Source: Pelagibacteraceae bacterium AG-439-F23
GTDB lineage: Bacteria; Pseudomonadota; Alphaproteobacteria; Pelagibacterales; Pelagibacteraceae
Assembly (NCBI GenBank): GCA_003212415.1
Contig: QCPT01000001.1
Location: 1 to 64,000 of the forward strand
DNA length: 64,000 nt
Direction: 5' to 3'
Positions within the stretch are counted from its first letter, which is position 1. Each line of letters begins with the position of its first letter. This document shows, piece by piece, positions 23,563-63,049 of this stretch. The notes beneath the pieces are model-generated. The model was not told the DNA's origin. It was given only the letters and a program-made list of their open reading frames with translations, and did no database searches. The position numbers were made by a program, and so were the translations under genes.

Positions 23563-24632
23563 TGTGTTGGTCGCAATTTTTGTCTTAAATCATCAATTGG
23601 TTTAAGAGAATTTCCAGACTGATAATGCCAAAAAGTCCAACCATTGCAACTTTCAGCGCCAATTATTTTAGCTGCTACCTTATGAATTGAACCCTCTGAC
23701 TCTTGATATTTAATGCTTCCATCAACCATTATTTTTGCATTAATTTTTTTCTTTTGATCATAAATTTCTGTACCAGGTTTAATTAATCCCATTTCGATCA
23801 ATGAACCAAAAGGAACTCTTGGTTTAGTTCTATTGTTTTGTAAAGTATCTAAATATTCATCTTCAATAACTTTTGTATTTTTTAACCTTTTATTTGCAGC
23901 TTCAAAATAATTTTTTCCTTTTTCAATGCCACAATAATTTCTTCCAAGTTTTTTTGATACTACAGCTGTTGTTCCTGATCCCAAGAATGGGTCTAGAATG
24001 AAATCATTCTTATTTGAAGATGCTAAAATAATTCTGTGTAACAATGACTCGGGTTTTTGAGTTGAATGAACTTTTGTTCCATTATTTTTAAGTCTTTCTT
24101 TTCCGTTACAAATAGGCAAGTTCCATGTCGACCGCATCTGAAGATCATCGTTCAAACATTTAAGAGACTGATAATTAAATGTATATTTTGATCCTTCGTT
24201 TTTTGAAGCCCAAATTAATGTTTCGTGAGCATTAGTAAATCTTGTGCCTCTAAAGTTTGGCATAGGATTATTCTTATTCCAAATTACATCGTTAAGAATC
24301 CAAAAACCCAAATCTTGGATTATAGATCCAACTCTAAAAATATTGTGATAGCTTCCAATAACCCAGATAGTTCCATTTTTTTTTAAAATTCTTTTGCATT
24401 CAGATAGCCAATTTAATGTAAATTCATCATAACTCTTAAAATTTTTAAATTTATCCCATTTGTCATCAACAGCCATAACTTTTGATGTATCTGGTCTACT
24501 CAGCTCTTTTTTTAACTGAAGGTTATAGGGTGGATCTGCAAAAATAAGATCAAAAGTTTCGCTAGGAATTTTTTTTAACTCCCTAAGACTATCTCCATTA
24601 ATTATTTTGTTTTTTAAAATTGATTTAATCAT
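23559..24632 (-). CDS. ccrM: Cell-cycle adenine-N6 DNA methyltransferase, GANTC-specific CcrM type
   Basis: A 357-aa beta-class methylase closely following Caulobacter CcrM in length and layout. Motif IV DLIFADPPYNLQL, the segment IWVIGSYHNIFRVG, target region NPMPNFRGTRFTNAHETLIW, then motif I ILDPFLGSGTTAVVSKKLG, and a C-terminal domain ending ESCNGWTFWHYQSG, which is the alphaproteobacterial CcrM DNA-binding tail. It methylates GANTC after replication and couples gene expression to the cell cycle. No restriction enzyme is nearby, so this is a solitary methylase. See the promoter and GANTC cluster upstream. Confidence 0.95.
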   Translation of the reverse strand: MIKSILKNKIINGDSLRELKKIPSETFDLIFADPPYNLQLKKELSRPDTSKVMAVDDKWDKFKNFKSYDEFTLNWLSECKRILKKNGTIWVIGSYHNIFRVGSIIQDLGFWILNDVIWNKNNPMPNFRGTRFTNAHETLIWASKNEGSKYTFNYQSLKCLNDDLQMRSTWNLPICNGKERLKNNGTKVHSTQKPESLLHRIILASSNKNDFILDPFLGSGTTAVVSKKLGRNYCGIEKGKNYFEAANKRLKNTKVIEDEYLDTLQNNRTKPRVPFGSLIEMGLIKPGTEIYDQKKKINAKIMVDGSIKYQESEGSIHKVAAKIIGAESCNGWTFWHYQSGNSLKPIDDLRQKLRPTH

Positions 24633-24645
24633 TTTCTAAAAAACA

Positions 24646-24674
24646 ATTAGACTCCAAGCAAGAGTCGGGGTCAA
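24646..24674 (-). promoter_or_regulatory. Predicted ccrM promoter overlapped by GANTC sites
   Basis: Minus strand: TTGACC (24674-24669), 17-nt spacer, TCTAAT (24651-24646); each hexamer matches the sigma70 consensus at 5 of 6. One GANTC lies in the spacer 2 nt after the -35 and another runs into the -10. The inferred start of transcription is about 24640, giving a leader of under 10 nt before the ATG at 24632. Confidence 0.6.
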
Positions 24675-24726
24675 CCTATGATTGAATTAATTTGACTCCA
24701 CTTGTTGTCAATTTTTTTTGAGACTC
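24650..24726. promoter_or_regulatory. Cluster of four GANTC methylation sites
   Basis: GACTC at 24650-24654, GAGTC at 24662-24666, GACTC at 24694-24698 and GACTC at 24722-24726 (the last inside the rnhB 3' end). Simple base composition predicts about one GANTC per 350-400 nt here, so four in 77 nt is a strong local excess. All four have C or G in the middle, although A or T would be expected more often. Confidence 0.8.
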
Positions 24727-60964: not shown

Positions 60965-62833
60965 TTGGCATTATATACATCTTCCGAACTTTTTATTGTG
61001 GAAAGAATAATTACAAAATCATTTGCTAGGTTGATGGGTCGTGGTATCCATAGAGGTTTTATAACATATGAAGAATTAAGTAAATCATTAGGAAAAAGAA
61101 ATTTATCAAACGAGAACTTGGAGCAAGCATTCATCCATATTCTTGAAGAAAAAATAGTTTTAGTTGAAAAAAAATCAGACTTTAAAGTTTTAAGAAAAAA
61201 AGACAATTCATCAAAAGAAGAAGGCAAATCTATCGAGAAAAGCGACGATCCTATTAGAATGTATCTAAGAGAGATGGGAGGTGTGGAGTTACTTTCAAGA
61301 GAAGGCGAGATTGCAATTGCGAAAAGAATTGAAGCTGGAAAAGACGTTATGCTTAATGCTTTATCACAAAGTCCAATTACAGCACAACAATTTTTTGAAT
61401 GGAACGAACAGCTTCAAAAAGATGAAATTCTAGTTAGAGAAATTATAGATATTGACACTAATTACATGGAAGATGAAGAAACTGGACAAAGCGCAAAACA
61501 AAAAAAAACAGATACTAATAACGAAGATGGCAAACAAGAAAATATGGCAACAAATGATGATGATGAATTTAACCCAACTCTTGCAGCAATGGAAAGTGAA
61601 ATAAAACCGAAAGTATTAGAGACTGTAAACACTTTAACAAAAGAATATAGCAAGCTTACAAAATATCAAAAAGACAAATTAGAATGTATTTTAAAATCAA
61701 TAACATTTTCTTCATCTAAAGAAAAAAACTATAAAAAAATTGTTGACAATATTTTGGAAAATATAAAATCACTTCAACTATCACCTCCAGTTTTAGAACT
61801 TCTTGTCCAAAAGCATTATATAGAAAATAAAAAAATTATTTCTTTAGAAGGAAATCTTTTAAGGCTTGCTATAAATGAAAAAATTCCAAGAGATGAATTT
61901 ATAAAATTTTATGTTGGAAACGAAATAAATCCAAACTTAAAAAGTTTTCTAGATACCAATATTTCCTGGAAGAAATTTTTTCAAAAACATAAAGAGGAGT
62001 TTAAAAATATAAGAGAAAGATTAATTGAGATAAGTAAAAAATTAGGTATTTCCGTAACAGAATATAAAAAATTAGTTAGTAGAATTCAAAAAGGAGAGAA
62101 AGAATCTAGAATTGCAAAAAAAGAAATGGTTGAAGCTAATCTTAGACTAGTCATATCAATTGCTAAAAAATATACAAATAGAGGATTGCAGTTTTTGGAT
62201 TTAATTCAAGAAGGAAACATTGGTCTAATGAAAGCGGTCGATAAATTTGAATATAGAAGAGGATATAAATTTTCAACTTATGCAACATGGTGGATAAGAC
62301 AAGCAATAACAAGATCAATTGCAGACCAAGCTAGAACTATTAGGATTCCTGTACATATGATTGAAACAATTAATAAGATTGTAAGAACACAAAGATTGAT
62401 ACTAAGTGAGTTTGGTAGAGAGGCAACCCCAGAAGAACTAGCTAAAAAATTAAGAATGCCTCTCGAGAAAGTGAGAAAAGTTTTAAAAATTTCTAAAGAA
62501 CCCGTTTCCCTGGAAAAACCAGTAGGAGATGAAGAGGATAGTAGTTTGGGAGATTTTATAGAAGATACAAAAGCACTAGCCCCTTTAGAACAAGCAATTA
62601 AGTCTAACTTAAGCGAAGCTACTACAAAAATTTTATCAACTTTAACACCAAGAGAGGAAAGAGTTTTAAGAATGAGATTTGGCGTAGGAATGAATACCGA
62701 TCATACACTCGAAGAAGTTGGGCTTCAATTTTCTGTAACAAGAGAAAGAATTAGACAAATAGAAGCTAAGGCACTAAGAAAATTAAAACATCCTAGCAGA
62801 TCAAAACAATTAAAGAGTTTCTTGGAGAACTAA
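60965..62833 (+). CDS. rpoD: RNA polymerase primary sigma factor (sigma70)
   Basis: A 622-aa sigma factor. Region 1.1-like start ([21 protein letters not shown]), region 1.2 ([22 protein letters not shown]), an acidic insert ([19 protein letters not shown]), region 2 ([40 protein letters not shown]), region 3, and region 4.2 helix-turn-helix ([19 protein letters not shown]). The start is uncertain: no ATG lies in frame; TTG 60965 or GTG 60995-type codon further in are candidates. A tRNA-Val follows 2 nt after the stop. Confidence 0.96.
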
Positions 62834-62835
62834 TA

Positions 62836-62910
62836 GGGCCGTTAGCTCAATAGTAGAGTACTGCATTGACATTGCAGGGGTAGTTGGAGCGTAACCAACA
62901 CGGCCCACCA
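62836..62910 (+). tRNA. tRNA-Val (anticodon GAC) with non-canonical elbow loops
   Basis: Acceptor GGGCCGT pairs perfectly with ACGGCCC; D-stem GCTC/GAGT; anticodon stem CTGCA/TGCAG with loop TTGACAT (GAC); variable GGGTA; T-stem GTTGG/CCAAC perfect; discriminator A and encoded CCA. The D-loop is AATAGTA (A18-G19 instead of GG) and the T-loop is AGCGTAA instead of the usual TTCRANN. G19 and C56 remain, while T54/A58 becomes A54/T58. Intact stems argue for a working gene rather than a pseudogene. 2 nt after rpoD. Confidence 0.85.
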
Positions 62911-62972: not shown

Positions 62973-63049
62973 GGGCCTGTAGCTCAGTTGGTTAGAGCAG
63001 TACACTCATAATGTATTGGTCCCAGGTTCGAGTCCTGGCGGGCCCACCA
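62973..63049 (+). tRNA. tRNA with CAT anticodon, likely Ile2 (lysidine) or elongator Met
   Basis: Acceptor GGGCCTG pairs with CGGGCCC (one T-G pair); D-loop with GG; anticodon stem GTACA/TGTAT and loop CTCATAA; T-loop TTCGAGT; CCA encoded. G1-C72 excludes initiator tRNA. C4-G69 and C5-G68 match the acceptor features that TilS uses in E. coli to choose tRNA-Ile2, so Ile(CAT) is favoured, but elongator Met cannot be excluded from sequence alone. Confidence 0.9.

Follow-up and report, generated by a model that had tools for sequence, protein, structure and literature searches.

The tRNA-Val(GAC) gene of the window, by which we mean the whole 64,000-nucleotide stretch analysed here, probably encodes a working tRNA for GTT and GTC codons whose elbow has been replaced as a set by an alternative one, spread horizontally mainly in a TruB-less subclade of SAR11. 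Comparison of sequences leads us to give this reading a probability of about 0.72. The contact between G18 and U55 (psi55) is near-universal and, with the T-loop, among the most conserved features of tRNAs; that conservation is incorporated into gene finders. In the window gene G19 and C56 are present, but G18 and U55 are replaced by A18 and G55, and U54-A58 by A54 and T58. The features concerned are as follows.

60965..62833, + strand: rpoD-like sigma factor gene directly upstream of tRNA-Val, used for the species tree
62836..62910, + strand: tRNA-Val(GAC) with the rewired elbow, CCA encoded (ARAGORN call; Rfam RF00005; 75/75 identity in relatives)
62849..62855, + strand: D-loop AATAGTA, that is A14 A15 T16 A18 G19 T20 A21 (sequence)
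62852, + strand: A18 replacing G18, invariant in 29 distinct SAR11 rewired tRNAs
62868..62870, + strand: anticodon GAC, the valine identity bases A35 and C36, with A73, being kept (sequence, ARAGORN)
62882..62882, + strand: A48 opposite A15, an unusual Levitt pair; A48 in 29/29 distinct rewired SAR11 tRNAs
62888..62894, + strand: T-loop AGCGTAA, that is A54 G55 C56 G57 T58 A59 A60 (sequence)
62973..63049, + strand: canonical tRNA-Met(CAT), downstream of tRNA-Val (ARAGORN)

ARAGORN places the boundaries of the gene at exactly 62836-62910. The Rfam model accepts it as a cloverleaf at 53.6 bits against an RF00005 gathering score of 29, the lowest score among the 23 tRNAs found in the genome. Read in parts, the 5' half is GGGCCGT TA GCTC AATAGTA GAGT A CTGCA TTGACAT TGCAG and the 3' half GGGTA GTTGG AGCGTAA CCAAC ACGGCCC A CCA. 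All the stems are paired, with G10-T25 the sole wobble, and the anticodon GAC, A35, C36 and A73 are those of a valine tRNA. With A18 alongside G55, G19 alongside C56 and an intact cloverleaf, the molecule belongs to what we call the A18/G55 class. The original prediction was thus right about the two loop sequences, the four altered positions with G19 and C56 kept, the paired stems and the encoded CCA, and also about the other two tRNAs of the window, Gln(TTG) and Met(CAT), which have canonical T-loops. It missed the unusual A15/A48 combination at position 15-48 and the proximity of rpoD, whose stop codon ends only 2 bases 5' of the tRNA. With the stop so close to the tRNA (window region 62831-62836), the rpoD mRNA would end, on its 3' side, where RNase P cuts. 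In some relatives the stop touches or overlaps the first tRNA base; in the other genera inspected the gene order is rpoD-Met, without Val between.

In a search of 147 genomes of the family, the 75-mer occurs without a mismatch in the window genome and in 21 others of the same genus. A pattern drawn from the 5' half had matches in 163 of 298 genomes of the family; among the same-genus matches listed, the A18 D-loop occurs in all except G105, G109 and G280. Complete relatives contain one intact copy per genome, to which G051 adds a 3' fragment. Own-genus genomes without a match are mostly assembly gaps: several are without the neighbouring rpoD as well. In other genera the same elbow is carried on different acceptor, anticodon and T stems. 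Alignment of the 29 distinct SAR11 rewired tRNAs shows standard pairs in 99.7% of pair cells and both-sided changes at 15 pairs (131 doubly changed cells). The covariation score of 0.511, compared with 0.126 when shuffled, was equalled in none of 500 shuffles, nor did slid registers come anywhere near that of the true register. Every variable stem changes with compensation and the elbow block is nearly invariant, G19-C56 being present in all 29 forms. A further pattern is visible at positions 16 and 59, where T16 occurs with A59 or A16 with T59 in 28 of the 29, the exception being the G291 type; a strict T-A/A-T pair was rejected, since T/T is found in 9 of 34 phage A54-T58 tRNAs, and the pattern is therefore tentative only.

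The two loops change together. Across 46 distinct SAR11 forms of tRNA-Val(GAC), G55 is always accompanied by A18 and T55 always by G18. A few congeners (G105, G109, G264, G280, G305 and G383) have the canonical pair of loops at the rpoD-linked locus. It had been suggested that a canonical T-loop at this locus in close relatives would point to sequencing error or a dying gene; such relatives do exist, but their D-loops are canonical too, which points instead to a coupled switch. In G280, for example, the canonical tRNA differs from that of the window at just three sites outside the loops (one T-stem pair and position 48), so that both loops switch together. The G291 haplotype, A18/G55 with T54-A58, looks like an intermediate between the elbow states. 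Positions 18/55, and likewise 54/58, switch jointly when congeners are compared at this one locus, and they do so between SAR11 genera and among phage tRNAs of many isoacceptors; this bears out the earlier view that the changes represent compensated evolution rather than decay.

The idea that the elbow might be unique to one genome or to SAR11 is unsupported, since phages and Verrucomicrobia also carry A18/G55. A search of 385 alphaproteobacterial genomes, representing 276 genera, turned up no further tRNA-Val(GAC) with G55; two other matches lacked the stems. When the GTDB species genomes were scanned for a pattern excluding the commonest Pelagibacter form, 42 SAR11 and four Verrucomicrobia contigs matched. 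The latter (L290, L291, L298 and L315) hold tRNA arrays, in which tRNA-Val(GAC) has A18, G55 and G54/G58 with T-loops GGCAGCA or GGCGGCA; in L290 and L291, the two whose neighbours were searched, HNH endonuclease genes accompany genes of chromosomal type, such as those for a histidine kinase and a GDSL lipase. ARAGORN missed the Verrucomicrobia rewired tRNAs and some of the phage forms. Viral contigs similarly have rewired tRNA-Val(GAC) inside tRNA arrays, with A54-T58 as in the window in L329, L330 and L334 and with T54-A58 or G54-G58 in others. Four of the 15 viral Val matches (L327, L336, L337 and L341) were discarded as chance matches without a cloverleaf.

A viral scan blind to the anticodon, in which a single type of D-arm (7-base D-loop) was held constant and variation allowed at 18 and 55 alone, argues strongly for coupling of these two positions. 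At least 120 stretches have A18/G55 and at least 120 have G18/T55, compared with six for A18/T55 and four for G18/G55. The Fisher p of ~5e-58 for the association, calculated on these counts, two of which are lower bounds, takes tRNAs irrespective of shared descent and, since phage tRNAs do share descent, is not a count of independent events. Among the matches listed, a cloverleaf check yielded 93 distinct A18/G55 tRNAs, five A18/T55 and four G18/G55. The listed A18/G55 tRNAs cover around 19 anticodons (Ile GAT 33, CAT 17, Val GAC 8, Val TAC 6, Gly GCC 5 and others), so the elbow is not a peculiarity of valine. Positions 54/58 are T-A in 40 of the 93, A-T in 34, G-G in 16 and otherwise in three. 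The 155 G18/T55 viral tRNAs listed have T-A in 145 and A-T in seven, and the latter show that 54-58 is not strictly tied to 18-55. Named examples include an unannotated A18/G55 tRNA in Erythrobacter phage vB_EliS-L02 (OL955261.1, 72153-72227), rewired tRNA-Val GAC and CAC among canonical neighbours in Erythrobacter phage XM05 (PV416404.1) and a rewired tRNA-Met in Brevundimonas phage vB_BpoS-Kikimora (ON529857.1). Rewired tRNAs are absent from phage T5, several blast matches, Lacusarx among them, proved to have canonical sequences, and blastn searches with single tRNAs against named phages gave no matches. Literature searches, confined to open papers, turned up no paper describing a bacterial or phage elbow of the A18/G55 kind.

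The genome is 76% complete, and among its 23 tRNAs found tRNA-Val(GAC) is both the only one with a changed elbow and the only one reading GTT and GTC, which together account for 58% of valine codons in the window, GTT being the commonest. The search for another tRNA able to read these codons, which had also been proposed, led to a sole further valine tRNA, Val(TAC), canonical according to ARAGORN. CmoB gave no match over the cut-off, so that Val(TAC) may read GTT and GTC poorly and the GAC tRNA is probably needed for them.

TruB, the psi55 synthase, requires the sequence 53-GUUYRANYC-61 (PMC7912444). The window T-arm, 53-GAGCGUAAC-61, departs from this motif and, since U55 within it is needed, TruB cannot act on the window tRNA. 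The original prediction that neither T54 nor psi55 could form therefore stands, with U54 and U55 both absent from the tRNA, TruB not found in this part of SAR11 and TrmFO below the cut-off in every SAR11 tested, where only MnmG-like partial matches were seen. TruB was detected in 0 of 66 genomes tested of g1, g2, g3, g4, g6 and g10, several of them complete, and in 14 of 14 control genomes. It is present in g5, g9 and g12, in most of family f2 and in one g7 genome out of two; the three genomes of g7 and f2 in which it was missed are incomplete. The deep split of the family in the RpoD tree coincides with presence or absence of TruB, so a single loss suffices. No description of the absence of TruB from a whole SAR11 subclade was found in the open papers searched. 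Most of the rewired forms occur in this TruB-less subclade, yet g12 has both the elbow and TruB, and most of g4 has neither; these cases, together with the phages, show TruB loss to be neither necessary nor sufficient for the elbow. The overlap most likely reflects an elbow that cells making no psi55 tolerate or favour.

Within SAR11 the trait is patchy: mapped onto the RpoD tree (63 genomes), the rewired label needs 15 changes and the canonical label 13, at least 10 of them on well-supported branches for each label. The rewired gene lies at rpoD in g1, at the native site beside family F0 in some g3 and g4, and in g12 next to F6/F10, the slot of the canonical gene in g9. An identical rewired tRNA is found in g1 (G026) and g12 (G023, G048), which indicates transfer. 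The pattern as a whole fits transfer and recombination more than vertical descent, and spread among SAR11 was most likely by horizontal transfer or recombination. In G155 (L221 and L247) an intact canonical tRNA-Val(GAC) elsewhere accompanies a decaying rewired copy at rpoD, with T-loop AGTGTAA and a mispaired T-stem. G051 has, at a second place (C1:397210-397265, L054), a perfect copy of the 3' part of the rewired tRNA, 56 bases long, which adjoins a glycosyltransferase-like gene and resembles an attachment-site duplication.

How might such an elbow work? In canonical tRNA, A58, G18, G57, G19 and C56 form one stack. G18 also touches psi55, and the ribosome and RNase P use the face formed by G19-C56 (PMC4810234). 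In the window tRNA this outer pair would be retained as a flat docking face for the ribosome, for RNase P and for further factors that read the elbow, while the inner contacts would be replaced as a set, A18-G55 standing in for G18-psi55 and 54-58 becoming A-T (elsewhere in the class T-A or G-G). Like G18 in its normal place, A18 most likely slots in between 57 and 58, and would pair with G55, with 54-58 presumably still stacking on G53-C61. The L-shape would thereby be preserved without modification to T54 or psi55. The class, common in phage tRNAs, would have spread horizontally, mainly into the SAR11 subclade without TruB. Once TruB was lost U55 would no longer have had to be a substrate, and one reason for retaining U55 would be gone.

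Other explanations have to be weighed against this. Constraint may simply have been relaxed, such that after an ancestral loss of TruB in SAR11 U55, and positions 18, 54 and 58 along with it, changed by neutral drift in steps that compensated one another, with the phage forms as unrelated parallels. The loss does map to the branch of g1, g2, g3, g4, g6 and g10, which have most of the rewired forms, TrmFO was not found over the cut-off in any SAR11 tested, and G291 resembles a step along such a path. Nevertheless, only one of the 23 tRNAs found in the genome has changed, rewired tRNAs persist in phages and in g12, which has TruB, the elbow block hardly varies although the stems do, unlike drift, and the identical gene in G026 and G023/G048 speaks of transfer, so that we consider drift unlikely. 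Somewhat less likely again is evasion, whereby the elbow would spare first phage and then SAR11-host tRNA from tRNA nucleases, or tRNA-gene integrases, that recognise the canonical T-loop or D-loop. The abundance of rewired tRNAs in phage tRNA arrays and the attachment-site-like piece in G051 are consistent with this. Against it, no nuclease or integrase with a specificity of this kind came to light, neither of the two ORFs in the 2.5 kb around the G051 fragment was recognisable as an integrase, and structure alone explains the 18-55 coupling.

A job outside translation is very improbable. The precedent is the Staphylococcus tRNA-Gly used for cell wall synthesis, which likewise has altered elements, in its case to escape EF-Tu (PMC9976931). 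However, no second Val(GAC) tRNA turned up in the 76% complete genome, the window gene serves the commonest valine codon, CmoB was not detected and no gene for a valyl-transfer side-reaction is seen nearby. As to a decaying gene or a sequencing error, decay does occur, as the G155 copy beside a canonical gene illustrates, but the window gene is identical in many separately assembled genomes and its stems are compensated; on this conservation we reject decay or assembly error for it, with hardly any probability left to either. A functional tRNA with a transferred elbow is thus the reading that we prefer.

This tRNA can be compared with several known systems. It shares with the canonical bacterial elbow (G18-psi55, T54-A58, G19-C56) the cloverleaf, G19-C56, a seven-base T-loop and G53-C61, but has A18/G55 and A54/T58, making modification to T54 and psi55 impossible. 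Eukaryotic initiator tRNA (A54-A58) also has A at 54 and no T54 but keeps the U55-class elbow, where the window tRNA has G55 and T58. The non-proteinogenic Staphylococcus tRNA-Gly is another bacterial departure from conserved T-arm elements; there the alterations escape EF-Tu, whereas here there is a coupled replacement, in the one tRNA found to read its codons. The elbow-less mitochondrial tRNAs of metazoans likewise work without the canonical D-loop/T-loop contact, although the window tRNA differs from them in having loops of normal length and the 19-56 pair. Zagryadskaya, Doyon, Kotlova and Steinberg (2003-2004), whose work PMC7912444 cites, reportedly selected E. coli suppressor tRNAs from randomised elbows; non-canonical elbows can thus work in a bacterium, but those were laboratory selections and the window tRNA is natural.

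Conservation of the elbow across the genus and its presence in many phage tRNAs suggest a working alternative design and not a broken gene. We are evenly divided on the broader proposition, namely that A18/G55 with a free choice at 54/58 (T-A, A-T or G-G) would constitute a second elbow architecture, widespread in phages, independent of T54 and psi55, and fixed for the commonest valine codon in abundant ocean bacteria after TruB loss. SAR11 is among the most abundant bacterial groups of the ocean. A natural, covarying replacement allows one to test which contacts in the elbow are required by folding, by charging, by RNase P and by the ribosome. A lineage without TruB gives reason to ask what TruB is for. 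The phage examples suggest that phage tRNAs may be made so as not to depend on elbow modification by the host.

Two minor observations may be added. In G005 and G013 (L251, L252) the canonical tRNA-Val(GAC) has the anticodon loop TCGACAC and hence C33, U33 being near-universal in tRNA anticodon loops. Elsewhere in the window, positions 24629-24698 of the - strand match the bablM sRNA of Rfam at 59.6 bits.
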